Source: a virus. From it: a stretch of 27,509 bases of DNA. Shown here piece by piece: positions 11,486 through 27,399 of the stretch (the first letter of the stretch is position 1; each line of letters starts with the position of its first letter). The notes beneath the pieces are model-generated. The model was not told where the DNA came from. It did no database searches and saw only the letters and a program-made list of their open reading frames with translations. The position numbers were made by a program, and so were the translations under genes. The stretch covers positions 1 to 27,509 of IMG/VR virus record IMGVR_UViG_3300033985_000213; one strand, 5' to 3'.

Positions 11486-12636
11486 CAGTTGGCACCGCCT
11501 TTCTGGCACTTCATGCAGAGAGGTCTACCAAAATTCCTTACTGCATAGGCAGACACCTTATCGCTGATTGTTGCACTACAGACTGTACATATATTGGGGT
11601 CAAAATCTTCGTCAGGTTCCATCGGTTCCTCATCTGGAGGGAACGGAGATTGTTCATCCTCTTGCTCTTGTGATTCATCAAAAGGACTATCATCTTGAGG
11701 TAGATCAGAAGTAAATGCGGAATTATCTACAAATTCTTCCGGATTAAAGTCATCTTGGCTTGACTGTTCTATATATGAGGGAGCTGCAGTCAGTACCTTG
11801 CTTGTTCCAAACATATTACTCATAGAAGACATCCCTTGTTCAAGCATTGCTCTTCTTACTTCCGGATTACTGTAGTCAGGGCTAAATGTAACTCTAGGAA
11901 CCACAAAAGGCTTTTTCAATTCATCAAGTGTATAAGTGCCTTTTATGCCGATAAGTGCTCTGATAACTCTCAGAATTGCTCCGGTCATAGCCTTTTCTGC
12001 GAAAGTCTTTCTGAGCAATGTCATATTAACAAGCACAGCCCTTTCGATATATTTCTGCCTATCTTCATCAGCTATTTTGTAAGCTTTGCAGGGTTTCCCC
12101 CATTTGTCAGTGGTGTTAATCCACTCACCTTTAAACAGTTTTGCTGCTTCCTCTGCTGCCTTCTTGTCAGTAATTCCATGCAGGGATTTATCCATAAATT
12201 CAAGTCTGAAACGATCCTCTTCATCATCCAGGTTTATTACTTTTTCATCACAGTGTGTTTTGCCGGTACCATCCGGAAGCCTCATAGCACCGTATGCCTT
12301 TGCCTTATAACAGTTTTTTGAGATATAGGCGCCATATGTGTTGTTCGGATCAAATTGGATGCCAGCTGCAGCTGCAAGTTTCATAAGTAGCGGTTTAGCA
12401 GGGGAATATACATCGGAATAGATGTCTTTCCCAGTCTTGGGATCAGTTCCTGTTTTCACGCTTCCAACCTTAAATATGTCTCCGGAATTCTCAGATATAT
12501 CAGCCTGTACTTCCATAACGGTGAATTTATAGAATGGATTAATCTGTGCCTCATTAGATACCGGCATCAGTAAGTTTACATTCTGGCCACTATATTTTTT
12601 TTGAATTTCAACTAAAGAATTACTTGTATTTGCCAT
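11485..12636 (-). CDS. Candidate single-strand annealing protein with C-terminal zinc ribbon
   Basis: A 383-aa protein, ATG preceded by GGAGG at 8 bp. I do not recognise the family securely. What is visible: a globular N-terminal 270 residues containing an AEKAMTGAILRVIRALIGI helix that resembles the segment AETKAKNRALR found in Rad52/RecT/Erf-like annealing proteins; a very acidic, Pro-rich linker (about 300-345); and a C-terminal CXXC...CXXC ribbon (CTVC, CMKC) of a type often found at the end of phage recombination proteins. It is the first gene of a three-gene coupled cluster ending in the Mre11-Rad50 fusion, an arrangement that fits an annealing protein plus exonuclease pair. An alternative is a DNA-binding replication protein. 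Confidence 0.5.
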   Translation of the reverse strand: MANTSNSLVEIQKKYSGQNVNLLMPVSNEAQINPFYKFTVMEVQADISENSGDIFKVGSVKTGTDPKTGKDIYSDVYSPAKPLLMKLAAAAGIQFDPNNTYGAYISKNCYKAKAYGAMRLPDGTGKTHCDEKVINLDDEEDRFRLEFMDKSLHGITDKKAAEEAAKLFKGEWINTTDKWGKPCKAYKIADEDRQKYIERAVLVNMTLLRKTFAEKAMTGAILRVIRALIGIKGTYTLDELKKPFVVPRVTFSPDYSNPEVRRAMLEQGMSSMSNMFGTSKVLTAAPSYIEQSSQDDFNPEEFVDNSAFTSDLPQDDSPFDESQEQEDEQSPFPPDEEPMEPDEDFDPNICTVCSATISDKVSAYAVRNFGRPLCMKCQKGGAN

Positions 12637-12657
12637 TTTTCATACCTCCATATTGTT

Positions 12658-12674
12658 GATTTAAGTATTAAATC
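12658..12674 (-). promoter_or_regulatory. Hairpin in the leader of the annealing-protein gene
   Basis: On the minus strand, GATTTAA and TTAAATC form a perfect 7-bp stem with a 3-base loop, with an outer ATTGT/ACAAT pairing around it. It lies 22 bp upstream of the ATG of the 383-aa gene, next to the ribosome site. No U-run follows, so it is more likely an RNA structure or protein site than a terminator. Confidence 0.35.
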
Positions 12675-12709
12675 ATGCTACAATATGAACATAGGGCGAT
12701 TGCGTTAGC

Positions 12710-12967
12710 TTAGCGGGCGGCGCAATCTTTTTCTATGTTCATAAGCTCATTGTGGATCCTGCAAGCCTCAGAAAATCGGTTCTGATAAACTGTTTCCGAT
12801 ATAAGCATTGCCAGATACCATGGCTGACGCCTTTCCCCTTGTGCATCACCTTCCCTGCTGATTATCCAGTCGAGTTTGCGCCTTGCGTATTGCTCGGCTT
12901 TTTTCATTTCATCATCAGAAATACTGTCGCCAAGTTCAATTTCAGCAAGTGCTTTCAGGTTACTCAA
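12710..12967 (-). CDS. Small phage protein of unknown function
   Basis: 85 aa from the TTG at 12965-12967, preceded by AAAGGGGTG. A GTG nine bases earlier is in frame but lies inside that ribosome site. The sequence is helical and charged (DDEMKKAEQYARRKLDWII, later SEACRIHNELMNIEKD) with no recognisable motif. Its start overlaps the end of the upstream gene by 8 bp, so it is probably translated by coupling. The stop codon lies within a GATTGCG/CGCAATC inverted repeat (about 12,697-12,727) that may fold at the end of this gene. Confidence 0.65.
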   Translation of the reverse strand: MSNLKALAEIELGDSISDDEMKKAEQYARRKLDWIISREGDAQGERRQPWYLAMLISETVYQNRFSEACRIHNELMNIEKDCAAR

Positions 12968-13211
12968 TCTTAACACCCCTTTTCTTCAGCTCATCAATCC
13001 AAAAAGCCTTAATTTCGTCTGAGCAGTGCGACATGGCATCTTTCCATGTGGGCCATCTGCCATGGTCATTAAAGAATTTATACTGATAAAACAGACTTTG
13101 CTGGTTGTGAGGCTGCTCTGGTTCATGTGCAACTGCACATTCAGGACAAGTTCCTGGAGCTGCCGGCATGAGAGCAAATGCCCCGAGATGTTTTCCCTTA
13201 ATTAAATCCAT
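12960..13211 (-). CDS. Small conserved phage protein with CPEC motif
   Basis: An 83-aa protein, ATG preceded by GGAAGGGGGA. It contains PGTCPECAVAHEPEQPHNQQ, then SLFYQYKF and GRWPTWKDAMSHC, a sequence pattern I recognise from small early proteins in many Firmicutes phages. The function is unknown. The CPEC pair could be half of a metal site, completed by the nearby His and Cys residues. Confidence 0.75.
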   Translation of the reverse strand: MDLIKGKHLGAFALMPAAPGTCPECAVAHEPEQPHNQQSLFYQYKFFNDHGRWPTWKDAMSHCSDEIKAFWIDELKKRGVKIE

Positions 13212-13227
13212 TCTGGTTCCCCCTTCC

Positions 13228-13461
13228 TTATTTGGTTAAATAGCATCTTTGACACCCTGATTCGCATTCAGGATATCCCAACTCTTTTAAGCATTTTCCG
13301 TTCATCTTCTGAATTGATTTGTACTTATCTTCTCCATAATGTTTTAGCTGGTTTTCATGTGTTGCTAAAATAGCAGTGCCACCATAAGCTTGAATAATAA
13401 ATCCGTATTTTTCCGCCAGCTTCATTACTTCACTCCAATGTATATCCATCTGTTCCGGCAA
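13228..13461 (-). CDS. Small phage protein of unknown function
   Basis: 77 aa from the TTG at 13459-13461, which has GAGGAGG about 9 bp upstream; an ATG four codons later is the alternative. It has a conserved-looking core, AEKYGFIIQAYGGTAILATH, and a Cys-rich end (CLKELGYPECESGCQRC), perhaps a small metal site. Similar short proteins occur in other phage early regions, but no function is known to me. Confidence 0.65.
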   Translation of the reverse strand: MPEQMDIHWSEVMKLAEKYGFIIQAYGGTAILATHENQLKHYGEDKYKSIQKMNGKCLKELGYPECESGCQRCYLTK

Positions 13462-13477
13462 CTGTTATGCCCTCCTC

Positions 13478-13681
13478 TCATGAGCACCTGTGTAATATAA
13501 ATCCTCTTAACCCATCTTCAGCAGTCCTTCCTCTGCGGATATCTCCATTTGTCAGGACATACTCCTTATCACTGGTGTTATCAGGGATAAAAAATACCGG
13601 ATGAACATTTACTATCAGAGCCTTTTTCCCTTTTCTTTTAACGAAGCGTATTGCTCTACCGCATATACTGCATTTTGTCAA
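13478..13681 (-). CDS. Small zinc-finger-like phage protein
   Basis: 67 aa from a TTG start (13679-13681) with an excellent AAAGGAGGTG site 9 bp upstream, inside the end of the membrane-protein gene. It begins MTKCSICGRAIRFVKRKGKK and ends GLRGFILHRCS. The pattern is CxxC at the start, a VHPVFF segment and NGDI in the middle, and a final His/Cys, which is a common layout in small phage proteins that bind a metal through the terminal residues. The function is unknown. Confidence 0.7.
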   Translation of the reverse strand: MTKCSICGRAIRFVKRKGKKALIVNVHPVFFIPDNTSDKEYVLTNGDIRRGRTAEDGLRGFILHRCS

Positions 13682-13952
13682 TGTATTTCACACCTCCTTT
13701 GCTTTTTAACTTCCTAAACTGAACTGTAATTGCCCAATATGTAGCCCCAAAAGCGGCTATAATCAGAATCCACTCACCTCCTACAGCAAAGTATCCTCTT
13801 TGGGCATAAGCTGCAGGTAATGCCCACAATGACACAAGCCACGCTGAAAATATTGATATACCTATCTTGATTGATACTGTGACAAGAAATGCCGCTGTCC
13901 TGGCAACTGCTTTCTTGAGTTGATGTATTTTCGTGGAGTACACCTTGGGCAT
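13656..13952 (-). CDS. Small membrane protein
   Basis: 98 aa from the ATG at 13950-13952, which has an AAAGGAAGG site 6 bp upstream. The frame stays open to an ATG at 14033, but that upper part is covered by the zinc-ribbon gene in another frame. Two hydrophobic stretches (TAAFLVTVSIKIGISIF through WALPAAYA, and EWILIIAAFGATYWAITV) predict two membrane passes with basic ends. The function is unknown. Possible roles are exclusion of other phages or a membrane effect during early infection; the sequence does not decide. Confidence 0.6.
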   Translation of the reverse strand: MPKVYSTKIHQLKKAVARTAAFLVTVSIKIGISIFSAWLVSLWALPAAYAQRGYFAVGGEWILIIAAFGATYWAITVQFRKLKSKGGVKYIDKMQYMR

Positions 13953-14029
13953 ATGTAACCTTCCTTTGGAATTACTTTTTGAATACTGACTTGCCATGTC
14001 CGTTGGCATTTGATACACCTTGCAACCAT
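13862..14029 (-). CDS. 55-aa zinc-ribbon protein
   Basis: A short gene starting at ATG 14029 directly after the TGA of the upstream small gene, with GGGGGAGAG as ribosome site. It contains ARCIKCQRTWQVSI, then IPKEGYICPRC, i.e. a CXXC-X18-CXXC zinc ribbon typical of small phage proteins. The other reading frame across the same DNA gives a longer but motif-less N-terminal extension of the membrane protein, so I prefer this frame for the first half. Stop TAG is at 13862-13864. Confidence 0.7.
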   Translation of the reverse strand: MVARCIKCQRTWQVSIQKVIPKEGYICPRCTPRKYINSRKQLPGQRHFLSQYQSR

Positions 14030-14191
14030 TCATTTTCTCTCCCCCTTTGATGCCATTTGGCGTATTTCTTCTTCTGTATACTCATCCATCAGTGCATAAA
14101 TAAGAGCTGCAAATTCATTTTCATCAAGTCCTTGATTAATTGCTTTCCTGTATGCAATAACTGCATAGTTAATGGCCGTATTGTTATCCAA
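14030..14191 (-). CDS. 53-aa phage protein of unknown function
   Basis: Starts at the TTG at 14189-14191, with GAGGGGGC ending about 7 bp before it, overlapping the end of the upstream gene by 8 bp. It ends with TGA at 14030-14032, directly before the zinc-ribbon ATG. The sequence NTAINYAVIAYRKAINQGL, then a LIYALMDEYTEEEIRQMA helix, resembles a small helical protein found in many clostridial phages. The tight spacing on both sides supports it as a real gene. Confidence 0.6.
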   Translation of the reverse strand: MDNNTAINYAVIAYRKAINQGLDENEFAALIYALMDEYTEEEIRQMASKGERK

Positions 14192-14471
14192 CTTTTAGCC
14201 CCCTCTCTTTTTCCTTTTCTAAAATCTCCAGTGCCTCCCATGGGTAGCCTACTGTCTTGTAAACCTGGTTAATCCTATCAACTACATTCAAAATTTTCTC
14301 TATATCCTTTTGGATATGTGGAAGATCCATTTCATACTCTACATAAAGGACCAACTTACCCCGGTTTTCACAAAGTTCAAGTTCTGTTTGTGTGTTTTCA
14401 AAAATGTAGTCATAAAACTCAGGATCCACGTCGATGTCAAGCTCGATCTTTGCATTGAGTCTCCTTAGCAT
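14184..14471 (-). CDS. Phage protein of unknown function
   Basis: 95 aa from the ATG at 14471, which has AAAGGAGC 8 bp upstream; an in-frame ATG at 14540 has no good ribosome site and its extra residues overlap the zinc-ribbon gene. The protein has a beta-rich middle (AKIELDIDVDPEFYDYIF, KLVLYVEYEMD) and a C-terminal helix (IQKDIEKILNVVDRINQVYK). No family recognised. It overlaps neighbours at both ends, as do the other genes in this compact block. Confidence 0.6.
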   Translation of the reverse strand: MLRRLNAKIELDIDVDPEFYDYIFENTQTELELCENRGKLVLYVEYEMDLPHIQKDIEKILNVVDRINQVYKTVGYPWEALEILEKEKERGLKVG

Positions 14472-14598
14472 CAGTTTCAGCTCCTTTCTCTTTATCCTTG
14501 GAAGCTTCTTGAAGGTGCTTACTATAACAAACTCTTCCAAAGCCTAATTTCTGATACTTCGGGTTTTTCAATGTTCTACCGCACCTGCCACATTGCAT
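14437..14598 (-). CDS. 53-aa zinc-ribbon-like protein (DUF6011-like)
   Basis: Starts at the ATG at 14596-14598 after GGGGAGGTG. The beginning, MQCGRCGRTLKNPKYQKLGF and then GRVCYSKH, is the pattern CXXCGRxLxxPxSxxxGxGPxC of short phage zinc-ribbon proteins related to DUF6011. A charged tail follows. The end overlaps the next gene by 35 bp in another frame. No function is known; such modules often bind nucleic acid or serve as adaptors. Confidence 0.7.
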   Translation of the reverse strand: MQCGRCGRTLKNPKYQKLGFGRVCYSKHLQEASKDKEKGAETDAKETQCKDRA

Positions 14599-14629
14599 TT
14601 ATTTCACCTCCCCTATATAAAGGCCTGTC

Positions 14630-14842
14630 CTATTTAGAAACAGCCATTGCTTGCTCATGAGCGTTAATCTCATTCATGTCGCAATAGAACTTCTCGCAAA
14701 AGTACTTTTTGGGCACTTTCCCGGCTACTGTGATATATCCCTTTTTGCTAAGCTCCTTGTTGAGGTCCTGAATGATTTTATAAGCTTTTGATTTAGACAC
14801 GCCAAGCAGTGCCATAATATCTTCAACCCGGTAAAATGCCAT
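14630..14842 (-). CDS. Excisionase-like / helix-turn-helix DNA-binding protein
   Basis: A 70-aa protein, ATG after AAGGAGG. It begins MAFYRVEDIMALLGVSKSKA, followed by YKIIQDLNKEL, a MerR/excisionase-type winged helix-turn-helix, and ends with the basic GYITVAGKVPKKYF segment found in small clostridial phage regulators of this type. It may act as excisionase for the integrase at 17,670 or as an early regulator. It is the third regulatory gene of the leftward operon, after two XRE proteins. Confidence 0.7.
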   Translation of the reverse strand: MAFYRVEDIMALLGVSKSKAYKIIQDLNKELSKKGYITVAGKVPKKYFCEKFYCDMNEINAHEQAMAVSK

Positions 14843-14855
14843 GTTCTTCGCCTCC

Positions 14856-15338
14856 TTACTTCAGATTTTTTTCTGCCCATAATCGCAGTTCTTGACTATA
14901 CACAGTTATTTGTTCCAATGCCTGAAGTACCTCTTCAAGCTCAGGTTTCTCATGTTCTGATATAACCCCATCAGCAGCTATATCAATAAGCTTGTTCTTT
15001 ATTTCATCAATAGAGCGAAATGCTGATAAAACTTTTATGGTCAATCGGTCGAGTTCTGCAATCTCTAGTTTGGGAACTGTGTCTTTTCCGATCGGACATT
15101 CATTGGTACAATAATGGTTTTTTATCTCCGGTGCATTATAGAGATCTGCCATTAAAACTACCTTATCCACAGGTACAACCTTTGTGTTCCCAAGCTCATA
15201 ATCTGCAAGTGAAGAAACCGATACTCCAAGTAGTTCTGCCGCACCTTCTCTGCTGTTTAGCTTGTCATTATATTTTGCTGCCTCTTTTCTACAGCGACAG
15301 TAGATATTATCCAATGCTTTTGTAGGGTTGGTTCCCAT
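14856..15338 (-). CDS. XRE-family helix-turn-helix regulator
   Basis: 160 aa. Residues 28-58 contain a Cro/CI-type helix-turn-helix (SREGAAELLGVSVSSLADYE, then LGNTKVVPVDKVVLMADLY). A HYCTNECPIGKDTVP segment follows, a pattern I have seen in phage XRE regulators. The C-terminal 80 residues are helical, probably for oligomerisation. It is the second gene of the leftward operon and probably acts in the lytic switch or early gene control. Confidence 0.75.
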   Translation of the reverse strand: MGTNPTKALDNIYCRCRKEAAKYNDKLNSREGAAELLGVSVSSLADYELGNTKVVPVDKVVLMADLYNAPEIKNHYCTNECPIGKDTVPKLEIAELDRLTIKVLSAFRSIDEIKNKLIDIAADGVISEHEKPELEEVLQALEQITVYSQELRLWAEKNLK

Positions 15339-15385
15339 TTATCTCACCTGCCTTTTGATTTAGAATATTTCACAAGAACATATTC

Positions 15386-15592
15386 CTATTGAGATACTTC
15401 ATCTGCAAAAAAAATTTCTTCAATAGGAAGCTTAAAGTAATCAGCTATTTTCTTTGCTTCAGCTAATGTAAACTTTACGCTCCCTACTTCTTTTTTGTAG
15501 TATGCAGCTTTTGTTTCTAGGCCAAGAATTTCAGCCATTGTTTCTGCAGATATACCTTTTTGGTTTCTGAGGTTTCTTAGCTTTTCAAACAT
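15386..15592 (-). CDS. Cro-like XRE repressor
   Basis: A 68-aa protein, ATG preceded by AAAGGAGG at 7 bp. It is essentially a single helix-turn-helix domain (NLRNQKGISAETMAEILGL, then ETKAAYYKKEVG) with IADYFKLPIEEIFF after it. It is the first gene under the leftward consensus promoter and faces the repressor gene across the four-operator region, the position of Cro in lambdoid switches. Its role as Cro is inferred from size and position. Confidence 0.8.
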   Translation of the reverse strand: MFEKLRNLRNQKGISAETMAEILGLETKAAYYKKEVGSVKFTLAEAKKIADYFKLPIEEIFFADEVSQ

Positions 15593-15613
15593 TACATAGC
15601 CTCCTTTAACAGT

Positions 15614-15629
15614 GTCTTATTGGGATACT
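15614..15629 (-). promoter_or_regulatory. Operator-like repeat O1
   Basis: On the minus strand AGTATCCCAATAAGAC, the least conserved copy of the 16-bp repeat AGTATCYNATTAGGAM. It lies just downstream of the leftward -10 box, around the expected transcription start. Confidence 0.6.
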
Positions 15630-15632
15630 TTA

Positions 15633-15661
15633 ATTATAGTATCCTATTAGGAATATGTCAA
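15633..15661 (-). promoter_or_regulatory. Leftward early promoter (consensus sigma-A)
   Basis: Read on the minus strand: TTGACA (15661-15656), 17 bp, TATAAT (15638-15633), both hexamers a perfect match to the housekeeping consensus. It drives the Cro-like gene and the early operon. An operator-like repeat (15638-15653) fills its spacer and a second (15614-15629) covers the expected start point, so repressor binding would block it directly. Confidence 0.85.
15638..15653 (+). promoter_or_regulatory. Operator-like repeat O2
   Basis: AGTATCCTATTAGGAA, partly palindromic (TCCTATTAGGA), inside the 17-bp spacer of the leftward promoter. Binding here would exclude RNA polymerase from that promoter. 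Confidence 0.7.
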
Positions 15662-15677
15662 TAGTTTTTTTATAAAT

Positions 15678-15693
15678 AGTATCTGATTAGGAC
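15678..15693 (+). promoter_or_regulatory. Operator-like repeat O3
   Basis: AGTATCTGATTAGGAC, same core as O4 in the opposite orientation. It lies between the leftward promoter and the repressor gene, where binding could control repressor transcription. Confidence 0.7.
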
Positions 15694-15706
15694 ACAATTG
15701 TATAAT

Positions 15707-15722
15707 TTCCTAATCAGATACT
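15707..15722 (-). promoter_or_regulatory. Operator-like repeat O4
   Basis: On the minus strand AGTATCTGATTAGGAA. It ends two bases before a TATAAT (15724-15729) that is the likely -10 box of the repressor gene, so it may mediate autoregulation. No good -35 hexamer is seen for that promoter. Confidence 0.65.
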
Positions 15723-15748
15723 ATATAATTCTGCTTGAGGTGGTGAAT

Positions 15749-16171
15749 ATGAATAGAATTAAGCAATTAAGAGAGGAAAAAGGTTGGACACAAGAGGATT
15801 TAGGTCATAGATTAAAGGTTCAAAAATCAGCAGTGTCAAAATATGAAACAGGTAGAGTTCCTTTAACAGATGAGACTATAAAGAAACTTGTAGAAATATT
15901 TGATGAGAGTGCCGACTATATACTTGGTCTTAGTAATGTCAGAAAGGATAAGAAATATACGGCAAAACTCACTGAAAAAGATATTGCAAAGATAAAAGAG
16001 GAATCTAACCGAATTAAAGCCCTTATGTTGACATCCTTAGGGATGGCTTTTGATGGCGAAATCGATGATGAGGAAACCTTGGCGAAGGTTATGGCTGCAC
16101 TAGAGGAGGGTATGATGTTGGCAAAAAAAGAAGCAAAGGAAAAATACACTCCAAAAAAACATAGGAAATAG
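15749..16171 (+). CDS. ImmR/CI-like XRE repressor
   Basis: 140 aa from the ATG at 15749 with AGGTGG upstream; an earlier in-frame ATG has no ribosome site. The N-terminal 60 residues are a classic helix-turn-helix (QLREEKGWTQEDLGHRL, then KSAVSKYETGRVPLTDETI). The C-terminal part is a charged helical segment, not a LexA-type peptidase domain. With the ImmA-like peptidase downstream, this fits the ICEBs1-type switch in which the peptidase cleaves the repressor on induction. It most likely binds the four repeats at 15,614-15,722. Confidence 0.85.
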   Translation: MNRIKQLREEKGWTQEDLGHRLKVQKSAVSKYETGRVPLTDETIKKLVEIFDESADYILGLSNVRKDKKYTAKLTEKDIAKIKEESNRIKALMLTSLGMAFDGEIDDEETLAKVMAALEEGMMLAKKEAKEKYTPKKHRK

Positions 16172-16182
16172 GAGCTATTTCC
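16164..16182 (+). promoter_or_regulatory. Hairpin covering the ribosome site of the ImmA-like gene
   Basis: GGAAATAGGAGCTATTTCC folds into a perfect 8-bp stem with loop GAG. It contains the repressor stop codon (TAG 16169-16171) and the AGGAG site (16170-16174) of the next gene. Translation through the repressor end would melt the stem, so peptidase synthesis should depend on repressor translation. Confidence 0.6.
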
Positions 16183-16185
16183 ACT

Positions 16186-16632
16186 ATGCAGGATATTAAA
16201 AGTGTTGTTGAAAAGATTAAAAGGAAATATAAAACATCTGAGCCTTTTGAGTTGTGCAGTTTAATGGGAATCACGGTATTATACAGCGACCTTGGAAGTA
16301 TACGCGGAATATATCAGTATAAATATAAAAAACGAATGATCCATATAAACTGCAATCTTGACTCATACCTTAAACGCCAAGTGTGTGCCCACGAATTAGG
16401 CCATGCCGTATTACATCGAAAAACCAATACCGTATTCCTTGATGCCTTTACATATTTGCCAGTAGAAAAAGTCGAAATAGAAGCCAATATATTTGCCGCT
16501 GAGTTACTTATAGGTGATATTGATCCTAAACACTATGAAGGATATTGCCTTAGCCAGGTAGCCTCGTGTTTGGAGGTATCTGAAAAAATGATGGAATATA
16601 AGGTGAAATATTTGCTTGATAAGGAGGGTTAA
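16186..16632 (+). CDS. immA-like: ImmA/IrrE-family metallopeptidase
   Basis: 148 aa with the zinc-binding HELGH motif (H69, E70, H73) in the stretch QVCAHELGHAVLH and a downstream EIEANIFAAELL segment that supplies the third ligand region, as in ImmA of ICEBs1. Members cleave the cognate phage or element repressor. It lies 14 bp after the repressor gene with its ribosome site in a hairpin. The protein is a single peptidase domain and contains no membrane segment, so it acts in the cytoplasm. Confidence 0.88.
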   Translation: MQDIKSVVEKIKRKYKTSEPFELCSLMGITVLYSDLGSIRGIYQYKYKKRMIHINCNLDSYLKRQVCAHELGHAVLHRKTNTVFLDAFTYLPVEKVEIEANIFAAELLIGDIDPKHYEGYCLSQVASCLEVSEKMMEYKVKYLLDKEG

Positions 16633-16634
16633 AA

Positions 16635-17033
16635 ATGAAAACATCTATTACAAAAAACAAGTGGTTTTGGGTAGTTCTTGTTGTAGTTGTTTTTGCAGCA
16701 TTGGGAAATATTTTAGGTTTGTATGACAAAGGCACACCCGTTAAAGAAATTTTAACTACACAAATAGATGAACCATCGGATAACACCATTGCTTACGAAG
16801 TGGTCACCAGCGAAGATTATGGTGTAGGATTAAAAAATCATTCTTTTAGGGTAATTGTTGATGAAAAAGCTACAGATGAACAACTTCTCTGGGTATATTC
16901 TCAGTTAAATAATAGTAAATATGAAGAAGTTACAATATGGTTTTATAAGAGCAAATCGTCTATAGAAAATGGAGTATATGATGTGGCAATGGTCGAGAGA
17001 AAAGGGACAGCCTACCCAACAATAACAAGATAA
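16635..17033 (+). CDS. Membrane-anchored protein, DUF4875-like
   Basis: 132 aa, ATG after AAGGAGGG, two bases downstream of the ImmA-like gene. Residues 9-27 are one hydrophobic segment (WFWVVLVVVVFAALGNI), giving an N-in anchored protein. The outer part, IAYEVVTSEDYGVG, then FRVIVDEKATDEQLLWVYSQL and a final YDVAMVERKGTAYP, recalls DUF4875, a small domain of unknown function. Expressed with the repressor in the lysogen, it is a candidate for superinfection exclusion or host surface change. The family match is from memory and moderate. Confidence 0.6.
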   Translation: MKTSITKNKWFWVVLVVVVFAALGNILGLYDKGTPVKEILTTQIDEPSDNTIAYEVVTSEDYGVGLKNHSFRVIVDEKATDEQLLWVYSQLNNSKYEEVTIWFYKSKSSIENGVYDVAMVERKGTAYPTITR

Positions 17034-17036
17034 GCC

Positions 17037-17615
17037 ATGCTTCAAGGGTACTTAAAAAAGTATATAGATCCTTTAATCGCTCTTAAAGAGCTTTTAAGTT
17101 ATCCTTTGTGTAATTTTGTCCATGAATTTTTTACTTACACAAGAAATTATGAGTCCGGATTAGATTTTGCTGATTACTGCTATAGCATTTTAGAAATTAA
17201 CAAAGACAAGCTTACCGATAAAGAATTTGAGCAATTTGACAAACTTTTAATAACATTAAGGCTTTCTATGCTCGACTACCTTAACCGTTGGGGAGAATAC
17301 ATATCATACTATGAAAATATTCTCTCAACAAAGAATTACCTGCTTACATATGACAAAAGCAGAAACGATCCTGATTTCAACAAATATGTTGTCTATGAAG
17401 ATGAAAGGTATAAGTATGTTCATTTCCTTTATGCAGTAAGCCATAGATATGAAATCATCAAAAGGAAATTTAATAAATGGCTTAATGGAAAAAATGTAGA
17501 ACATTTGAAGCGTCACCAGCAGGACAGACTTTCTGATACTGAACTACAAGAAAGGATTGAATCAATATTCGCTCGACTTGATATGTATTTACGTAGAAGT
17601 CAGAATGATAAATAA
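17037..17615 (+). CDS. Protein of unknown function in the lysogeny operon
   Basis: 192 aa starting three bases after the previous stop. No clear ribosome site is present, so coupling is likely. The protein is rich in aromatic and charged residues (EFFTYTRNYESGLDFADYC, WGEYISYYENIL, YKYVHFLYAVSHRYEIIKRK), apparently all helical, without signal peptide, membrane segment or known motif. It lies between immunity genes and integrase, where phages carry genes expressed in the lysogen, often for defence against other phages. No family recognised. Confidence 0.6.
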   Translation: MLQGYLKKYIDPLIALKELLSYPLCNFVHEFFTYTRNYESGLDFADYCYSILEINKDKLTDKEFEQFDKLLITLRLSMLDYLNRWGEYISYYENILSTKNYLLTYDKSRNDPDFNKYVVYEDERYKYVHFLYAVSHRYEIIKRKFNKWLNGKNVEHLKRHQQDRLSDTELQERIESIFARLDMYLRRSQNDK

Positions 17616-17619
17616 CCAA

Positions 17620-17646
17620 AACCCCGCCCTATATAGGGGTGGGGTT
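17620..17646 (+). terminator. Strong hairpin before the integrase gene
   Basis: AACCCCGCCC and GGGGTGGGGTT pair over about 10 bp with G-U wobbles and a short ATATA loop, starting 4 bp after the stop of the 192-aa gene. The run after it (ATTCTGC) is a poor U-tract, so it may be a weak terminator that limits read-through into the integrase. Confidence 0.5.
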
Positions 17647-17669
17647 ATTCTGCAAAATGGGGTGTTATT

Positions 17670-18788
17670 ATGCCTGTATATAAAGATGAAAAACGTGGCA
17701 CTTGGTATGCAAGTTTTTATTATACAGACTGGACCGGTACACGTAAACTTAAAAAGAAAAGAGGATTTACCAAGCAAAAAGATGCTAAGGATTATGAGCG
17801 AGAATTCCTTAATAAATCCAAACAAAGCTGCGATATGTCATTTGAAAGCCTTGTGCAACTTTATTTAGAAGATGTATCTGCCCGTTTAAAAGGAAGCACT
17901 ATGGATACAAAGAAAAATATTATTGATACCCATATCCTCCCCTTTTTCAAAAAGTTGCCTTTGAATAAGATTGAGGCAACTCATGTTAGAAAATGGCAAA
18001 ACAAGCTTATAACAAATGAAAATGATTATTCACCTACTTATCTCAAAACGATAAATAATCAATTAAGTGCCATTTTTAACTATGCAGTAAAATACTATAA
18101 GCTACCCGAAAATCCTGTTCGTAAAGCTGGCAGTATAGGAAAGAAAAAAGCAGATGAAATGGAGATTTGGACCGTTAATGAATTTGAGCAATTTATTAAA
18201 GTAGTTGATAAACCAGCCATAAAGCTAGCTTTCGAAATAATGTTTTGGACAGGATTGCGAGTCGGAGAAACAATAGCCCTCACACCTAAAGATATTTGGG
18301 ATACTAAGATTATAGATGTGAATAAAACTGCATCTCGCAAAAATGGTGAGGACCGCATTTATGATCCTAAAACCACAAAGAGTGCCCGTAAAGTACCGAT
18401 ACCGGATTTCCTTTATAATGAAATTCAGGAGTATCTTAATTCATTGTATGAAATCAAAGATACTGATAAAGTTTTCTATTTTACTAAAACTACTCTCAAC
18501 AAGAATTTAGATAGCTTTGCAAAGATAGCCTGCGTAAAAAGGATAAGGGTTCATGACTTGCGCCATTCTCACGCTTCATTACTGATAGAAATGGGCCAGC
18601 CAATACTTCTTATTTCAGAACGCCTAGGACATGAAAGTGTGCAGACTACTATGGAAACATATGCACATCTTTATCCTAATAAAGGAATCCAGTTAGCTGA
18701 GGAATTACAAAAATTAAGAAATGTAGAATCCCAATGCCAAAATAATGCCACAAGTGAAAACGAAACCCCGAAATCCCTTGAAGAATAG
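17670..18788 (+). CDS. int: Tyrosine-type site-specific integrase
   Basis: 372 aa, ATG after GGGGTG. It begins with an AP2-like arm-binding domain (MPVYKDEKRGTWYASFYYTD), then a core-binding SAM-like domain (about 55-150), then the catalytic domain with R197 (TGLRVGE), K237 (TTKSARKVP), H295 and R298 (HDLRHSHAS), H321 (LGHES) and the nucleophile Y331 (TMETYAHLYP). This is the standard length for Tn916/phage-type integrases. It integrates and, with an excisionase, excises prophage A. Its last codons lie in the terminator stem, and DNA of the target gene follows within about 20-30 bp, so the attachment site is directly downstream. Confidence 0.95.
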   Translation: MPVYKDEKRGTWYASFYYTDWTGTRKLKKKRGFTKQKDAKDYEREFLNKSKQSCDMSFESLVQLYLEDVSARLKGSTMDTKKNIIDTHILPFFKKLPLNKIEATHVRKWQNKLITNENDYSPTYLKTINNQLSAIFNYAVKYYKLPENPVRKAGSIGKKKADEMEIWTVNEFEQFIKVVDKPAIKLAFEIMFWTGLRVGETIALTPKDIWDTKIIDVNKTASRKNGEDRIYDPKTTKSARKVPIPDFLYNEIQEYLNSLYEIKDTDKVFYFTKTTLNKNLDSFAKIACVKRIRVHDLRHSHASLLIEMGQPILLISERLGHESVQTTMETYAHLYPNKGIQLAEELQKLRNVESQCQNNATSENETPKSLEE

Positions 18789-18805
18789 GGGTTTTCGGGG
18801 TTTTT
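18763..18805 (+). terminator. Rho-independent terminator overlapping the integrase stop
   Basis: AAACCCCGAAA/TTTCGGGGTTT plus CCC/GGG form a stem of about 14 bp with one mismatch and a loop of about 11 bases containing the stop codon area, followed by TTTTTATT. The last 26 bases of the integrase gene form its left half. It also separates the integrase from the converging truncated tape-measure gene. Confidence 0.85.
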
Positions 18806-18830
18806 ATTCATCATTCCCAGTTCTATGATC
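18800..18830. other. Prophage A junction (attachment site region)
   Basis: On the minus strand, tape-measure coding sequence (NNLPKIIELGM) ends here and continues into unrelated codons that are the reverse of the integrase end. Base composition also changes. This is therefore one end of the integrated element, with the att core somewhere in this stretch. The core length cannot be told without the other junction. Confidence 0.75.
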
Positions 18831-19793
18831 TTCGGCAGGTTGTTCGTCATAAAATCAACGATGGACGCAATAATCCTCGGCAGGGCCTCGATAAGCTTTG
18901 GCAGGGCATTTACAAGACCCTGCGCCAGCCCTTCAATAATGGCAAAGGCCGCTTCAAGGATCTGATCCATGTTGTTTATGAGCGTCTCGCAGATAAGGAT
19001 GACGGCTTCGACGATTGCAGGTATCAGCTCCGGCAGCGCATCTCCGATTCCTGCCGCCAGCGTCACAATCATTTGAACGGCTGCCTCCACCAAAGCGGGA
19101 AGGTTGTCGATAATGCCCTGCACCAAAGCCATTACAAGCTGCAGCGCGCCGTCGGTTATCTGCGGCAAAGCGTCGATTAAAGCCTGCAATAGCGTCATGA
19201 CAATCTGCACTGCCGCGTCGATAATGACAGGTAGATTATCCACTATAGCCCCGCCGATTCCTTTCAAAACGCCGCCTAATTTTTCAAAACGCCCTCCAGC
19301 GTCGTCTGCCTGATCGGCGGCTTTTTTGATTTCATCGCCAAATTCGCCGGCCTGTTTTTCCGCTTCGTTGAACTCATCGCCTGCATTGTCCAGCGCTTTG
19401 TTGCTCTGCTCCAGCTCTCGCTCCATTTTGTTAAGTTCAGCCTTGGCATTGTTAAGCTGTATCTGCCAGGACTGAGTACGCCGGTCGGTTTCCCCGAAAG
19501 AGGAGGCGGCATTGGCAAGCGCTTTCTCCAAGGTGGCGATTTTTTCTTTCTGCGCATCGATCTCTTTGCTTAGTACCCTGTTTCGCACAGTAACAGCTTC
19601 AACTGACTTATCCTGTTTGTCAAACTGGGATGCGACAAGGTTCATTTCGCTGCCCAGCACCTTGAAGCTTTGGTTGATTTCCCGAATGGCGTTTTTAAAT
19701 TCCTTTTCGCCTTCAATGCCGATCTTCAGGCCAAAATCGTCTGCCACAAAACCGCCTCCTTCCTGCAAAATTTATAAAAATTATTAAAGGCTA

Positions 19794-19822
19794 TTGTATT
19801 TCAACGCGGTTTGGCATATACT
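19794..19822 (+). promoter_or_regulatory. Promoter of the AbrB/PIN cassette
   Basis: TTGTAT (19794-19799), 17 bp, TATACT (19817-19822): a good sigma-A-type promoter, 58 bp before the antitoxin ATG. It points against the phage late genes, so the cassette has its own transcription. Confidence 0.7.
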
Positions 19823-19831
19823 AATAGTAGG

Positions 19832-19855
19832 AAAAGTAGGGATTTCCCTGCTTTT
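19832..19855 (+). promoter_or_regulatory. Leader inverted repeat of the toxin-antitoxin cassette
   Basis: AAAAGTAGGGA and TCCCTGCTTTT form an 11-bp stem (one G-U) with a 2-base loop, between the promoter and the AGGAGG of the antitoxin. The right arm TTCCCTGCTTTT recurs exactly at 20,586-20,597 in the terminator after the toxin. It may be an operator for the AbrB-type antitoxin or a partial terminator. Confidence 0.55.
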
Positions 19856-19880
19856 CAAATCCAATAAAGGAGGTTTCAGC

Positions 19881-20153
19881 ATGAGCGTTCCTATAGTTGA
19901 TAATGCAAAGGTAATGGCCAAAGGCCAGATCACGCTGCCAAAAGATATCCGCTCCAAACTTCGCCTTTCCACCGGAGACCGTGTCACTCTCATCTGCGAG
20001 GAAGACCGTGTCATCCTTATGAACTCTGCTGTTTATGCCATGAAAATGCTGCAGAAAGAAATGGAGGGCGAGGCGGAAAAAGCCGGGATCCGCAGTGATG
20101 ACGACGTTATGGATCTGGTAAAGGACGTCCGCGCGGAGATTGAAGGACTATGA
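19881..20153 (+). CDS. AbrB/MazE-like antitoxin
   Basis: 90 aa from the ATG at 19881, which has AAAGGAGG 7 bp upstream. The N-terminal swapped-hairpin DNA-binding domain is clear: KVMAKGQITLPKDIRSKLRL, then STGDRVTLICEEDRVIL. The C-terminal acidic helices (DDDVMDLVKDVRAEIEGL) would bind and neutralise the toxin. The stop overlaps the toxin start by 4 bp (ATGA), the usual coupling in these modules. Such antitoxins normally repress their own promoter; the inverted repeat at 19,832-19,855 is a possible site. Confidence 0.88.
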   Translation: MSVPIVDNAKVMAKGQITLPKDIRSKLRLSTGDRVTLICEEDRVILMNSAVYAMKMLQKEMEGEAEKAGIRSDDDVMDLVKDVRAEIEGL

Positions 20154-20554
20154 GAGTATTGATCGACACCAATATCCTGATCTCCGCATCCTTGAGCAGT
20201 GAAGGAACGCCATATCAGGCGTACGTCAAAGCCGTTACACACCCCAACCACGGTATGGTCTGCGATCAAAACATCGATGAGCTTCGCCGGGTATACAACC
20301 GGAAATTCCCTCACAAAATCCAGGCGCTTGAACGCTTTTTGGCGCTTGCGCTTACCGTCCTTGAAGTTGTTCCGACTCCTGCTGTTGACGTGTCCGATGA
20401 AACTCTTGTCAGGGACGTATCCGACAGGCCAATTCTCCGGGCAGCCGTTGCGGCAAAAGCCGACGTACTTGTAACCGGCGACAGGGATTTTCTTGAATCC
20501 GGCATCACAAACCCAAAGATCGTAACAGCGGCAGAGTTTTTGCAAATGGAATAA
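20150..20554 (+). CDS. PIN-domain ribonuclease toxin (COG1569 type)
   Basis: 134 aa with the PIN acidic residues in place: D6 (LIDTNI), E44 (NIDELRR), D92 (VSDRPI), and D111 and D113 (TGDRDFL). The length matches the 'putative toxin component, PIN family' group, which cut RNA using Mg2+. It is intact and co-translated with the antitoxin. The cassette is on the opposite strand within a late tail operon, fitted between the tail chaperone stop and the tape-measure ribosome site, so it is an added gene pair with its own promoter and terminator. Confidence 0.88.
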   Translation: MRVLIDTNILISASLSSEGTPYQAYVKAVTHPNHGMVCDQNIDELRRVYNRKFPHKIQALERFLALALTVLEVVPTPAVDVSDETLVRDVSDRPILRAAVAAKADVLVTGDRDFLESGITNPKIVTAAEFLQME

Positions 20555-20604
20555 CAGCAGCTTTGTAAAGCAGGGATTGGATAAATTCCCTGCTTTTTGC
20601 TGTT
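20553..20604 (+). terminator. Terminator of the toxin-antitoxin cassette
   Basis: AAAGCAGGGA (20567-20576) pairs with TCCCTGCTTT, followed by TT, and an outer AACAGCA/TGCTGTT pairing extends the stem. It begins at the toxin stop codon and ends at the stop codon of the converging tail chaperone gene, so it may serve both strands. Confidence 0.75.
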
Positions 20605-20795
20605 TATATTCCATAGGGGATCACATCATCGATGGTCAGCTCCCGTTTCGGTTTGGAAATACCTAAGAACTGCTTGTGGCACTCCCACAAATCCAGCAGG
20701 TATCCGATAGGCATTAGCCATACTTCCTCCTCTGAGCTGTGAAGCTGGACAGTGCCGTAATACAAAAGCCGAGTGAACAATTCCTCATCGCTCAC
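20604..20795 (-). CDS. Tail assembly chaperone, frameshift domain (gpT-like)
   Basis: 63 codons after a GTG that overlaps the stop of the upstream chaperone (GTGA). There is no independent ribosome site of note, and the frame is the -1 frame relative to the upstream gene. The slippery heptamer 12 bp upstream (A AAA AAC) would join it to the chaperone as an extended product, as in lambda gpG-gpGT. The sequence (LFTRLLYYGTVQLH, EEVWLMPIGYLLDLWECHKQFL) fits a short T-domain. It is best read as the C-terminal part of the fusion rather than a free protein. Confidence 0.75.
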   Translation of the reverse strand: MSDEELFTRLLYYGTVQLHSSEEEVWLMPIGYLLDLWECHKQFLGISKPKRELTIDDVIPYGI

Positions 20796-21175
20796 CCGGC
20801 CTGTGTGTTTTTTGAATCATCCTCACTTTGAACGTTTCTTTTCGTGCCTTTGAACATCGCTTCCATAATTGCGTTCTTGTATGCCGCCAGCTCCAGCGGA
20901 GAAGTAAGAAGCTCCACCGCCTCCTCGGTCAGAAGTTCCCGCTTATCCTCGTTTTTTAGATTGTGTATCAGGATGCTTTGGTTGGCTAACAGCGTAATCA
21001 GCCACACTACTTCATCCAGCGCCATCTCGAAGTTTTCTGTCTTCATCAGCTTGGTGCCGAGATTTTCAAGTCCGCCGTACCTTTTAGCGATTTCCTTTGT
21101 CGCTCTGGTGGTTAGAATAAGCTGATACTCCTCGCTGCCGATGCTGATGCTTGCGCGTCTATCAGCATCCTGCAT
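20792..21175 (-). CDS. Tail assembly chaperone (gpG-like)
   Basis: A 127-aa protein whose ATG overlaps the stop of the tail protein remnant by one base (TAATG). It is rich in helices: GSEEYQLILTTRATKEIAKR, then MALDEVVWLITLLANQSI and TSPLELAAYKNAIMEAMF. Between the major tail protein and the tape measure, this size and layout identify the tail assembly chaperone that coats the tape measure during tail growth. Its last codons carry A AAA AAC in the correct phase for a -1 shift into the next frame, giving a longer GT form. Confidence 0.8.
   Translation of the reverse strand: MQDADRRASISIGSEEYQLILTTRATKEIAKRYGGLENLGTKLMKTENFEMALDEVVWLITLLANQSILIHNLKNEDKRELLTEEAVELLTSPLELAAYKNAIMEAMFKGTKRNVQSEDDSKNTQAG
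20807..20813 (-). promoter_or_regulatory. Programmed -1 frameshift slippery site
   Basis: On the minus strand AAAAAAC in the phase A AAA AAC (codons TCA AAA AAC), a canonical X XXY YYZ heptamer, four codons before the chaperone TGA. A -1 slip reads KKHTGRVSDEEL, straight into the downstream frame with no stop. Confidence 0.8.
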
Positions 21176-21640
21176 TATTCACCGCCTCCTCCTACAGCAA
21201 AGACAGGTTCATATACCTGCGTATACCAGCCGGTAATAGTGGCAGGCAATACGCCGGGGTCGTCCTCGCTGACCCCCGCCTTCCACGGATGCTTGCCCTG
21301 GCCGTCCGGCTTGTTGCGCCGCATGACTGTTCCTTCTATGGTTGGCGTTGAAAAAGTGATGCTGTCACCCTTCGTCTGCAGGTTTGTCGTAGGGATGCCG
21401 AATTTTACCCGGTACAGTCAGAAATACCTGTACTTGCCGTTGGCTTTTTTGGCTCTGAAGCCGATTGCCACCGGAACACCTCCGTCCTCGCTGGCAGAAA
21501 TCAGCACCTTGTTGTCGTCAAGGGTAGCTCCCGTCAAAACCTCGGCTGCGGCAACACCTATGTCTGCAACGCCGAGAGATAAGGTACCGCCTTGAAATTC
21601 CTTGACTACTTCAGCCGCTCCGTCATCAGCATAAAGCGTC
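21175..21640 (-). pseudogene. Major tail protein, C-terminal remnant with internal stop
   Basis: The frame that begins inside the capsid gene at about 21,640 reads TLYADDGAAEVVKEFQGGTL, then LISASEDGGVPVAIGF, KANGKYRYF, a TGA stop (21418-21420), LYRVKFGIPTT, DSITFSTPTIEGTVM and WYTQVYEPVFA to a TAA at 21175-21177. This is the order of the phi13/TP901-type major tail protein, in which the stop replaces a position usually held by Trp (…YFWLYRVKF…). The N-terminal half is missing and the rest is fused to the capsid gene. The protein cannot be made in full form. Confidence 0.82.
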
Positions 21641-22812
21641 GCCTCGGCCAGCACCAGTTTGCCGTCCACGCGCTGTGTTGACATGAAGCCCACCTGTCCG
21701 GTAGCGGCATACAGCTCGTTGAGCCGCTTGAAGACCCTGCCCTGGCGGTCTGCCATCCAGTAGTAGGAAAAGTCGCCGAATACTATCGTCTTAGCTCCGG
21801 CGGCAATGGCAGGCATATATGCCGACGTCTTGACAGGCCGGTTGAGGATTGTATCCGGTGTTCCGGCGGTAACGGAAGGCTGCCAGAGGTATTGGCCGTT
21901 GTTGTCCTTAAGCTTCCTGATAGTCTTGACTGTCGAATCGTTCATGATAAATACCGCGTTCCTGCGGTAGGGAGACTTAAGGCTATAGAACAAGTCCATT
22001 ATCTCGTCAAGAGTAATGGCTGTCGCGCTTGCCGCGGTCACTCCGACCTCGCCGCCGCCGTTATTTGCCAAGATTCCTGTAGGCTTGCCGGAACCGTCGC
22101 CGACAAAGAAAGCTTCCTCCTCCTTTGCTCCGATGCGGCGGGCGAATTCTTTGGCAATATACTGCTCCAGATTGAATACGCTGTCATTTAAAAGTTCCTC
22201 AGACACCTTGATCATTGTCGCCAGCTTGTAGGCTCCAATGGATACCTGCGCAAAGGAGTCGTCGCTCTCCGGGATCTGGCCTTCTTCATCCACCCAGGAT
22301 GCAGTGCCCTTGCTTGCCACCACCGGAATTTTCTTGTCGCCGCTGGACGTTATAATTACATTGACAATCTGGCGGAAGATGTTTTCCTCTTCCAGCACTT
22401 CCACAAGAGTACGCTCAAACTCGTCGGGGACAAGGTATCCGCCTTCAGTGTCTTCTCCGATCTGCAGTGCGTCCTGCACGTCATATTTGCGTCTGCCGCG
22501 CATCATGTTCCAGAAAGACTGTCGGTATTCATCGCTTGCGCGTCCGGTTTTTTCATTATTGCCCGGTATGGAAGCAGGCTTGTCTGTGATGGGGGCATTC
22601 AGCGGCTTTGATAGTTCCAAATCGATGACCGCCTGACGTTCAAGACGTTCTATTTCTTTGCCGAGCACCACAACGTCAGCTTCCATTTTCTCATAGGTTG
22701 CGGTGTCCTCCGGTGAAAGCAGCCCGTCGCTTCCGCGTTTGCTGTCGAGGAAAGCTTTGGCGGCTTCCCATGCTTTCGCACGTTTTTCACGCAGTTCCAA
22801 TATTTTGCTCAT
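21418..22812 (-). CDS. HK97-type major capsid protein fused to a tail-protein fragment
   Basis: 464 aa. Residues 1-75 are the coiled-coil delta domain (ILELREKRAKAWEAAKAFLD); after a linker the HK97 fold starts at TEGGYLVPDEF, with the expected IVNVIITSSGDKKIPVV, WVDEEGQIPESD, KVSEELLNDS and FFVGDGSGKPTGIL, ending at STQRVDGKLVLAEA (near 21,641). A normal capsid protein ends a few residues later. Here about 74 residues of major tail protein follow, up to a premature TGA. The capsid part is essentially complete and might still fold, but the fusion shows that a deletion removed its own end and the connector genes. Confidence 0.9.
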   Translation of the reverse strand: MSKILELREKRAKAWEAAKAFLDSKRGSDGLLSPEDTATYEKMEADVVVLGKEIERLERQAVIDLELSKPLNAPITDKPASIPGNNEKTGRASDEYRQSFWNMMRGRRKYDVQDALQIGEDTEGGYLVPDEFERTLVEVLEEENIFRQIVNVIITSSGDKKIPVVASKGTASWVDEEGQIPESDDSFAQVSIGAYKLATMIKVSEELLNDSVFNLEQYIAKEFARRIGAKEEEAFFVGDGSGKPTGILANNGGGEVGVTAASATAITLDEIMDLFYSLKSPYRRNAVFIMNDSTVKTIRKLKDNNGQYLWQPSVTAGTPDTILNRPVKTSAYMPAIAAGAKTIVFGDFSYYWMADRQGRVFKRLNELYAATGQVGFMSTQRVDGKLVLAEATLYADDGAAEVVKEFQGGTLSLGVADIGVAAAEVLTGATLDDNKVLISASEDGGVPVAIGFRAKKANGKYRYF

Positions 22813-22832
22813 TGTTAAATCCTCCTTTAAAT

Positions 22833-23621
22833 TTATGGTTTCAGCAAATTAAGCCGCTTTTCAAGCCACTCTGCTGGAGTGGCTTTGGCGACATCAATCG
22901 GGGTTCCTATTGGTTTTTCTTTAGGTATAAGTTTTTGCAGGATGGAATTTGTCACCGCTTGCCTGCTGAAAATCATTCCTTCCGATACTTCGAAATCAGC
23001 GGGAGACGATTCGTCCTCCATAAACAGGATGCCGTCGGCAAAGCCCAGTTCCACCGCTTTTCTTGCGTTAAACCAGCTTTCCGCATCCATGAGGTGCGAT
23101 ATTTTTGCCCGGGAAAGCCCTGTTTTCAGTTCATAGGCGTTGATGATGGATTCCTTTATTTCTTCCAGCATGGCGATGGCCTTTTCCATCTCTTCCGTAT
23201 CGCCGATAGCTATAGTCATTGGATTATGGATCATCATCATGCTCACCGACGACATGAACACGTCGCCTCCGGCCATAGCAATGACCGACGCGGCGCTGGC
23301 AGCGATACCGTCAATCTTTACGGTGACTTTGCCTTTGTAATCCATCAGCATGTTGTAAATCTGATTGGCCGCAAATATGTCGCCGCCCGGACTGTTAATC
23401 CAGATCGTAATGTCACCTTCTCCGGAAAGCAGTTCTGACTTGAATTGTTTGGGAGTCACCTCGTCTCCCAGCCAGCTTTCCTCGGCTATGGGTCCGTCGA
23501 GGTACAGGGTCCGGCTGTCGTCATCGTTTTGCACCCAGTTCCACCAGCGTGACGCTGGACCCAATCCGCGCTCCGGGTTTTGCGGGTTTTTGGGCTTATC
23601 TGCCCGCGTTTTTGCTTGCAT
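22833..23621 (-). CDS. ClpP-type prohead protease
   Basis: 262 aa from the ATG at 23621, which has AAGGAGG 8-9 bp upstream; an earlier ATG overlaps that site. The S14 fold is visible: LYLDGPIAEESW, ITIWINSPGGDIFAA, the nucleophile Ser in GIAASAASVIAMAG, and the catalytic His in MMMIHNPMTIA. The C-terminus is the usual variable region. The enzyme cleaves the delta domain of the capsid protein during prohead maturation. It overlaps the portal gene end and precedes the capsid gene by 20 bp, the standard order. Confidence 0.92.
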   Translation of the reverse strand: MQAKTRADKPKNPQNPERGLGPASRWWNWVQNDDDSRTLYLDGPIAEESWLGDEVTPKQFKSELLSGEGDITIWINSPGGDIFAANQIYNMLMDYKGKVTVKIDGIAASAASVIAMAGGDVFMSSVSMMMIHNPMTIAIGDTEEMEKAIAMLEEIKESIINAYELKTGLSRAKISHLMDAESWFNARKAVELGFADGILFMEDESSPADFEVSEGMIFSRQAVTNSILQKLIPKEKPIGTPIDVAKATPAEWLEKRLNLLKP

Positions 23622-24867
23622 TCTTATCTGCCTCCTTATCATAAAAATTGCCTGCTTGCGACAGCGGAAGCATATTGCCGTTGATGAGATACAGGTCGCC
23701 GCCCAGCTCCGCAGGAATGCGGTTCATATTCTCAAGCTCACGGATATCGTTGGCCGACATCCAGCCGTTCTGCCTTGCAGTGGCATAGCCATTCATGCGG
23801 CTGGCATAATCTCCGCGCAAAAGACCGTCTACATTGAACTTGACAAAGTACGTCCGCTTCTCCGACGGTAAAAGCAGCGCCTTTTGGATAGCCTGCTCCC
23901 AGCGCATCACCCACGGGTCGAGCGTATATTTGACAAACTCCAGCGACTGCTGCTCGATGTTTGAAAAGCTTGACTTTTCAAGGTCGCCTACCATATGGGG
24001 AGGCACGCGGAAGATGCGGGCGATCTCGTTTATCTGGAACTTCCTTGTCTCCAGAAACTGTGCCTGTTCGGGCGGGATACCGATCTGCTGAAACTTCATG
24101 CCCTCTTCAAGAACAGCAATGCGGTGGACGTTGGCACTTCCCTGATAGACGGCGTTCCAACTTTCACGCACCTTTGCCGGGTCCTTGAGCACGCCCGGAT
24201 GTTCCAGAACTCCGCCCGGGTTTGCGCCGTTTGCAAAGAAGGACGCGCCATACTCTTCGCAGGCAATGGCCATGCCTATTGCATTCTTGGCCATGGCAAT
24301 AGGGGAGTAGCCAATCAGCCCGTCAAAGCCGAGTCCTGGGATGTGCAGTACCTCCTCGCTTCGCAGGTATACCAGTCCCGCTTTCGGATCCGTCCTGCTC
24401 TCCTTGCTGTCCCGCCGGTAGATATAATACAGTTCTCCGTTTGGAGCCCTGTCCACCGTCATCTTGTTTGGCAAAAGCGGGTAAAGCGCCAGCACACGTC
24501 CTGTGCCGTCCCTAATAATCTGAGCGTAGGCATTTCCCCATAAAAGAAGATGACTCATCAGTGCCTCGCGGAACACGAATGAAGTCATCTCCGGATTTGG
24601 CTCGTCATGGAGCAGGTAATACAGCGGGTGAGTGAGCGCTTTCTCTTTGCCTCCGTCTTCCTTATACCGGTACACATGCAGCGGAAGCCCTGCGATGGCC
24701 TCCGCAAGTATCCTTACACAGGCATACACTGCCGTTGTCTGCATGGCTGTCCGCTCATTGACCGTCTTGCCGCTGCTGGTGCCACCGAAGAAAAAGCTGT
24801 ATGCATTGCCGAACAGGCTGTTTTTCGGCTTATCCATTGCTTTGAACAGGCGGGAAAATATTCTCAT
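23596..24867 (-). CDS. Portal protein (HK97 family)
   Basis: 423 aa. The start overlaps the terminase stop by 4 bp (ATGA). Family features are present in order: VNERTAMQTTAVYACVRILA, EAIAGLPLHVYR, a LYYLLHDEPNPEMTSFVF segment, then GNAYAQIIRD, EVLHIPGLGFDGLIGYSPI, and the C-terminal FRVPPHMVGDLEKSSFSNIE with QQSLEFVKYTL. Twelve copies form the DNA entry channel of the head and dock the terminase. The length is normal and no disruption is seen. Confidence 0.95.
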   Translation of the reverse strand: MRIFSRLFKAMDKPKNSLFGNAYSFFFGGTSSGKTVNERTAMQTTAVYACVRILAEAIAGLPLHVYRYKEDGGKEKALTHPLYYLLHDEPNPEMTSFVFREALMSHLLLWGNAYAQIIRDGTGRVLALYPLLPNKMTVDRAPNGELYYIYRRDSKESRTDPKAGLVYLRSEEVLHIPGLGFDGLIGYSPIAMAKNAIGMAIACEEYGASFFANGANPGGVLEHPGVLKDPAKVRESWNAVYQGSANVHRIAVLEEGMKFQQIGIPPEQAQFLETRKFQINEIARIFRVPPHMVGDLEKSSFSNIEQQSLEFVKYTLDPWVMRWEQAIQKALLLPSEKRTYFVKFNVDGLLRGDYASRMNGYATARQNGWMSANDIRELENMNRIPAELGGDLYLINGNMLPLSQAGNFYDKEADKNASKNAGR

Positions 24868-26501: not shown

Positions 26502-26595
26502 GCTTTAAGTGAGTAAGAAAAAAAGAACCTCTTGCGAAGCTCCTTCTTACCAAGTGGATTTCTATGAAGTTATTTACGCTGCCAGCGTCTTTTTT

Positions 26596-27395: not shown

Positions 27396-27399
27396 CTAA

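Follow-up and report, generated by a model that had tools for sequence, protein, structure and literature searches.

A temperate phage of a kind that integrates at the 3′ end of the housekeeping gene guaA (prophage A) has very probably landed at a secondary site, within the tape-measure protein (TMP) gene of an unrelated prophage (prophage B). The window, that is, the whole stretch of DNA analysed here (27,509 bp), is one entire IMG/VR record, IMGVR_UViG_3300033985_000213; nothing therefore lies to its left, and the left end of prophage A is absent from it. An integrase search of IMG/VR returned two sister records that were 100% identical to the window wherever they aligned, and these supply what the window lacks. 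G001 repeats the integrase/TMP junction of the window at 100% identity. G002 (58,177 bp) carries prophage A from end to end in the orientation opposite to that of the window, is 100% identical to window positions 7670–18819 and gives a length of ~58.05 kb for the complete prophage.

Architecture of the nested prophages

The window falls into two parts. Positions 1–18819 hold the early and integration genes of prophage A, with a tyrosine integrase as the last of them. The minus strand from 18813 to 26501 is a partial late region of siphophage type, assigned to prophage B, which runs from the terminase through portal, protease, capsid and tail protein genes as far as the beginning of the TMP gene. 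The features that define the insertion are as follows (window coordinates unless G002 is named).

1–18819, strand not assigned: the 18.8 kb of prophage A nearest the integrase, with its lysogeny, replication and integrase modules, from G002 identity and annotation
17670–18788, plus strand: intact tyrosine integrase of prophage A (Pfam PF14657, PF14659, PF00589)
18813–18819, minus strand: shared core TGGGAAT, attR copy, from alignment of both junctions
18813–19747, minus strand: N-terminal part of the prophage B TMP (PHROG tail length tape measure, E = 1.5e-50)
G002 58052–58058: shared core TGGGAAT, attL copy, from the junction alignment
G002 58052–58177: C-terminal continuation of the TMP

In G002, prophage A encodes a large terminase subunit (TerL), a portal, a virion structural (head) protein, a tail sheath, its own 952-aa TMP and a baseplate wedge, together with repressor-like regulators and a lysin-like gene (named by inspection). 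Judged by this gene set, prophage A is a complete contractile-tailed temperate phage of 58 kb and no satellite.

Two further features of prophage A were observed. A diversity-generating retroelement (L098:11110–14101, equal to G002 49287–52278) comprises a reverse transcriptase gene, a 107-bp template repeat and a variable repeat that forms the C terminus of an FGE-sulfatase-like protein of the tail region; all 12 differences between template and variable repeat fall at template adenines. Separately, a 1285-aa protein (window 7263–11120) seemingly combines within a single ORF an SbcD-like phosphoesterase with an SbcC/SMC-like ATPase, the SMC match being slightly under the curated cut-off.

Both junctions share a 7-bp core

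The initial annotation had reported that the minus-strand TMP gene ends near the integrase terminator and runs on as antisense integrase, that base composition shifts at the same place and that the integrase is intact. Each of these observations was borne out. The TMP ORF starts at 19747 and extends down to the core at 18813–18819, beyond which it reaches its stop at 18671 only as antisense integrase. The core starts 24 bp beyond the integrase stop codon, the TMP gene is broken at the core, and the integrase and its terminator end ~20 bp from the break. GC content changes from 0.32–0.37 to 0.50–0.53 across the A/B junction. The integrase retains its Arm, SAM-like and catalytic Pfam domains, and the residues of the tyrosine-recombinase family align.

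The other end of the insertion is found in G002, the first base of which corresponds to window position 18819 and the final 126 bases of which are TMP C-terminal coding sequence. The TMP C terminus, which the initial annotation had proposed to look for at the far end of prophage A, is thus present; its absence, or an assembly chimera, had been named as grounds against the nested arrangement, and a chimera is unlikely. Alignment of both junctions, also proposed there, yielded the 7-bp sequence TGGGAAT common to the two. Seven bases is a common length for the overlap region of tyrosine recombinases. Counting both strands, TGGGAAT occurs once in prophage B.

When the flanks were joined at the core by script, a single TMP frame resulted, ..NLPKIIELG|ITLIVQLAVGLIKAIPEL.. 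(in a wider excerpt, ..TNNLPKIIELGITLIVQLAVGLIKAIPELVKSLPQ..). Across 192 aa the joined TMP is 83–90% identical to the unbroken TMPs of its nearest relatives, with no interruption at the joint (90% over 192 aa for L022, 89–90% for L015 and L020). The joint corresponds to residue 578 of the 762-aa TMPs of relatives, so prophage A removes about the last 184 TMP residues. Both ends therefore agree with the earlier proposal of a phage inside a phage, with the attachment site within the TMP coding sequence.

The two junctions come from separate records: none holds both of them together with both TMP halves, and G002, the source of the left junction, carries no N-terminal part of the TMP. Exact searches of IMG/VR returned no attP, no intact attB and no shorter TMP-side site. 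A pattern for the left end of prophage A matched 13 stretches, one of which is G002; the 12 others look like chance 17-mers. The start of G002 at the first base of the core could be taken as a sign of a second context (a circle or another site), which we regarded as suggestive only and set aside: the other end of G002 lies 126 bases from the core, as against 127 at the IS end, and for that reason the reading was not used.

The integrase of prophage A belongs with guaA-targeting relatives

The 3′ end of guaA is a known target of tyrosine integrases, for example those of GIsul2 and ATE-1 (PMC5704250). The top match in a genome scan of the integrase clade was a Clostridiales MAG (L102), whose integrase is 99.5% identical to that of prophage A. 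L102 shares the boundary sequence, TTTTTATTCATCATTCCCA, and has the guaA 3′ end (..TIEWE stop) immediately after it in place of the TMP. The opposite end of an A-like phage, 93% identical, lies on another contig of the L102 genome.

The same neighbourhood recurs more widely. Among the best 80 of more than 500 integrase relatives in GTDB, guaA lies no more than 700 bp downstream of the integrase in 50 (in 35 the guaA 3′ end is at most 300 bp away, in another 15 at most 700 bp). No guaA match was found for 26 of the 80, including 10 with too little downstream sequence to judge. Inspection of 12 relatives without a clear guaA neighbour revealed a GMP-synthase-like neighbour in one (L116), and in several of the remainder the core followed by what is possibly the end of another element.

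The attachment sequences themselves differ in their likeness to guaA. Scored with a matrix of guaA 3′ ends, the left half of the prophage A attP reaches +15.5 and encodes KQPSIIEWE, a mimic of the guaA tail; for the TMP site the score is −26, which places it at rank 390 of 17,584 in prophage B. On these comparisons the prophage A integrase is a member of the guaA-3′-end clade. The present insertion is not at guaA, having TMP sequence on both flanks, and because the TMP site resembles guaA poorly and is matched only in the core, we regard it as a secondary site.

A guaA-integrated genome, G013, was compared from the other side. No TMP relatives were found in this one genome. The far end of its phage diverges ~40 bp before the core, shows no core copy (L198:1–700, contig 22) and gives way to what is, by inspection, a purL-like gene. 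Lacking the expected core copy, attL of the G013 prophage seems to be altered.

Prophage B is in decay

Prophage B was compared with relatives at 80–90% DNA identity. The positions discussed below are these.

19248–19258, minus strand: site at which 801 bp of TMP sequence present in relatives is missing, in frame, at a short imperfect microhomology
20792–21175, minus strand: tail protein of prophage B between the major tail protein and the TMP (PHROG 2115)
21418–22812, minus strand: fused ORF of the major capsid protein and the C-terminal part of the major tail protein, with the deletion at a 10-bp microhomology near 21641–21651
22833–23642, minus strand: ClpP-like head maturation protease of prophage B (Pfam PF00574)
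23596–24867, minus strand: portal protein of prophage B (Pfam PF04860)
24864–26501, minus strand: terminase large subunit of prophage B (Pfam PF20441, PF03354)
27383–27509, strand not assigned: end of an IS21-like element, 127 bp, at the window end; the same end stands at window position 23968 in G001

Relative to these genomes, the window lacks 801 bp in the TMP gene, in frame, and ~1.6–1.75 kb between the capsid and major tail protein genes, where the connector genes would lie. Both halves of the resulting fused ORF match profiles, PHROG major head and PHROG major tail; TIGR01554 is well over its cut-off and TIGR01603 slightly under. In G001, the prophage B sequence is broken in the portal gene at window position 23968 and then passes into the IS21-like end (E = 7e-10, a match that falls short of the curated cut-off for the IS21 family model); in the window this end is found 3.4 kb farther along. 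With the end at two positions, the difference between the two records is not a plain 3.4-kb deletion; it may stem from a deletion next to the IS or from a separate insertion, either of which fits. As read from its gene complement, prophage B is a decaying or defective prophage without head–tail connectors and without most of the major tail protein. The initial annotation had held that prophage B could not make tails while the insertion stays, which proved an understatement, as connectors and a whole major tail protein are missing too.

Further variation was seen among B-like sequences. L027, which is B-like and derives from the metagenome that also yielded G002, has a deletion of ~270 bp in the TMP gene and one of ~490 bp at the portal/protease boundary, a pattern that suggests recurrent decay of B-like prophages. 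The tail genes of prophage B enclose, in antisense orientation, a pair made up of a MazE/AbrB-like antitoxin and a PIN toxin (window 19890–20554); contiguous alignments suggest the pair in L015, L016, L021 and L027, and it is absent from L017, L018, L020, L022 and L023. Compared with window 24864–26635, L017 has extra DNA at ~24868–24895 and ~26206–26219, possibly insertions, placed at the ends of the terminase gene and inside it.

Origin of the arrangement

We propose that a cell with the resident siphophage-type prophage B was entered by the contractile-tailed temperate phage A, whose integrase would have recombined its guaA-mimicking attP with the TMP gene at the common TGGGAAT. The two junctions would then be products of integrase strand exchange at the core. 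An occupied guaA may have been the reason for the landing in the TMP gene, and prophage A would have gained a chromosomal berth away from guaA. It may still be able to excise, which would restore the TMP frame but no working prophage B, whose function may have been lost before or after prophage A landed.

Most likely, prophage A landed off target and does not act as a working gene switch. The initial annotation had drawn a parallel with skin-like elements: an in-frame TMP is indeed predicted on excision, but a functional switch is not supported. Such a switch, in which induction leads to excision of prophage A, restoration of the TMP and assembly of prophage B, the arrangement being under selection, would account for the exact in-frame restoration predicted at the core and has a precedent in helper-embedded PICIs (HE-PICIs), satellites in prophage late genes that are linked to delayed late-gene expression (PMC10111431). 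It is weakened by the guaA clade of the integrase, by the match confined to the core and by the defects that prophage B would keep even after precise excision, namely the missing connectors, the loss of most of the major tail protein with its capsid/tail fusion and, in G001, the broken portal gene. Moreover, prophage A has structural genes of its own and no need of prophage B, and its integrase is antisense to the TMP gene, unlike the co-oriented HE-PICIs. We consider the switch very unlikely. It is likewise highly improbable that the lineage of prophage A evolved to enter and disable the tail genes of competitor prophages. Many Firmicutes phages have a conserved TMP gene, and the insertion costs prophage B the last quarter of its own, as such targeting would have it; but no integrase among the best 80 of more than 500 GTDB relatives sits at a recognisable TMP of prophage B's TMP family, and the site is a poor match beyond the core. 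Nor is the core conserved at this TMP position: among six relatives inspected, L015 has TGGGAAT and L016, L020, L022 and L023 differ, the mapping of the sixth, L017, being unreliable.

A fusion of two prophages by assembly or scaffolding error would be in keeping with the metagenomic source and with contig ends at repeats (the core and the IS end). Yet the junction is identical in the window record (G000) and in G001, the reciprocal junction in G002 has the same core in the correct reading frame, and a 7-bp overlap is probably far too short for an erroneous join by a k-mer assembler; we judge an artefact extremely unlikely. The off-target landing of prophage A might also be one instance of a wider habit, in which TMP genes of resident prophages serve phages of the guaA type as a recurrent alternative berth, the competitor being disabled and the element remaining excisable. 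This extension is very unlikely; if true, phage-in-phage nesting through such a berth would be a form of interphage competition.

Comparison with known systems

Prophage A resembles the elements found at the guaA 3′ end (islands, IMEs and prophages) in its integrase clade, in the guaA mimicry of its attP and in the L102 boundary at guaA, and differs from them in sitting in a TMP gene. The skin element is prophage-like DNA that splits a coding sequence, the gene being restored on precise excision. SP-beta is described as splitting spsM in sporulating Bacillus, with precise excision restoring the gene (PMC4191935). Prophage A likewise splits a coding sequence that precise excision could restore, but no sign of regulated excision was seen for it, and the gene restored would be that of a dead prophage rather than one of host development. 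Lysogeny of lambda at secondary sites when attB is unavailable (cited in PMC10111431) is similar in that integration proceeds with core similarity only; the secondary site of prophage A differs in lying inside another prophage.

The nearest published arrangement appears to be that of the HE-PICIs, which share with prophage A the location of a mobile element in a prophage late gene (the TMP gene being a late tail gene) and the predicted precise restoration of that gene; off-target integrations by their integrases have also been reported (Tommasini et al. 2023, PMC10111431). The differences are considerable. HE-PICIs are satellites, whereas prophage A is a whole 58-kb phage with TerL, portal, sheath, TMP and baseplate; their integrases form a clade specialised for late genes, whereas that of prophage A belongs to the guaA clade; they are co-oriented with the interrupted gene, whereas the integrase of prophage A lies on the plus strand and the TMP gene on the minus strand; and the prophage around prophage A is defective.

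The arrangement illustrates clearly, in nature, how phages can become nested when one of them lands off target, and it is a warning that prophage callers may merge two phages into a single record. In a partial literature search we found no paper on a tape-measure gene occupied by an entire phage, and the mobile elements covered by the published survey of prophage late genes are small satellites (PMC10111431). Prophage A, with an integrase whose usual site is, on the evidence above, guaA, is an entire temperate phage located in a late gene of a prophage unrelated to it, and both of its ends are resolved to a 7-bp core.
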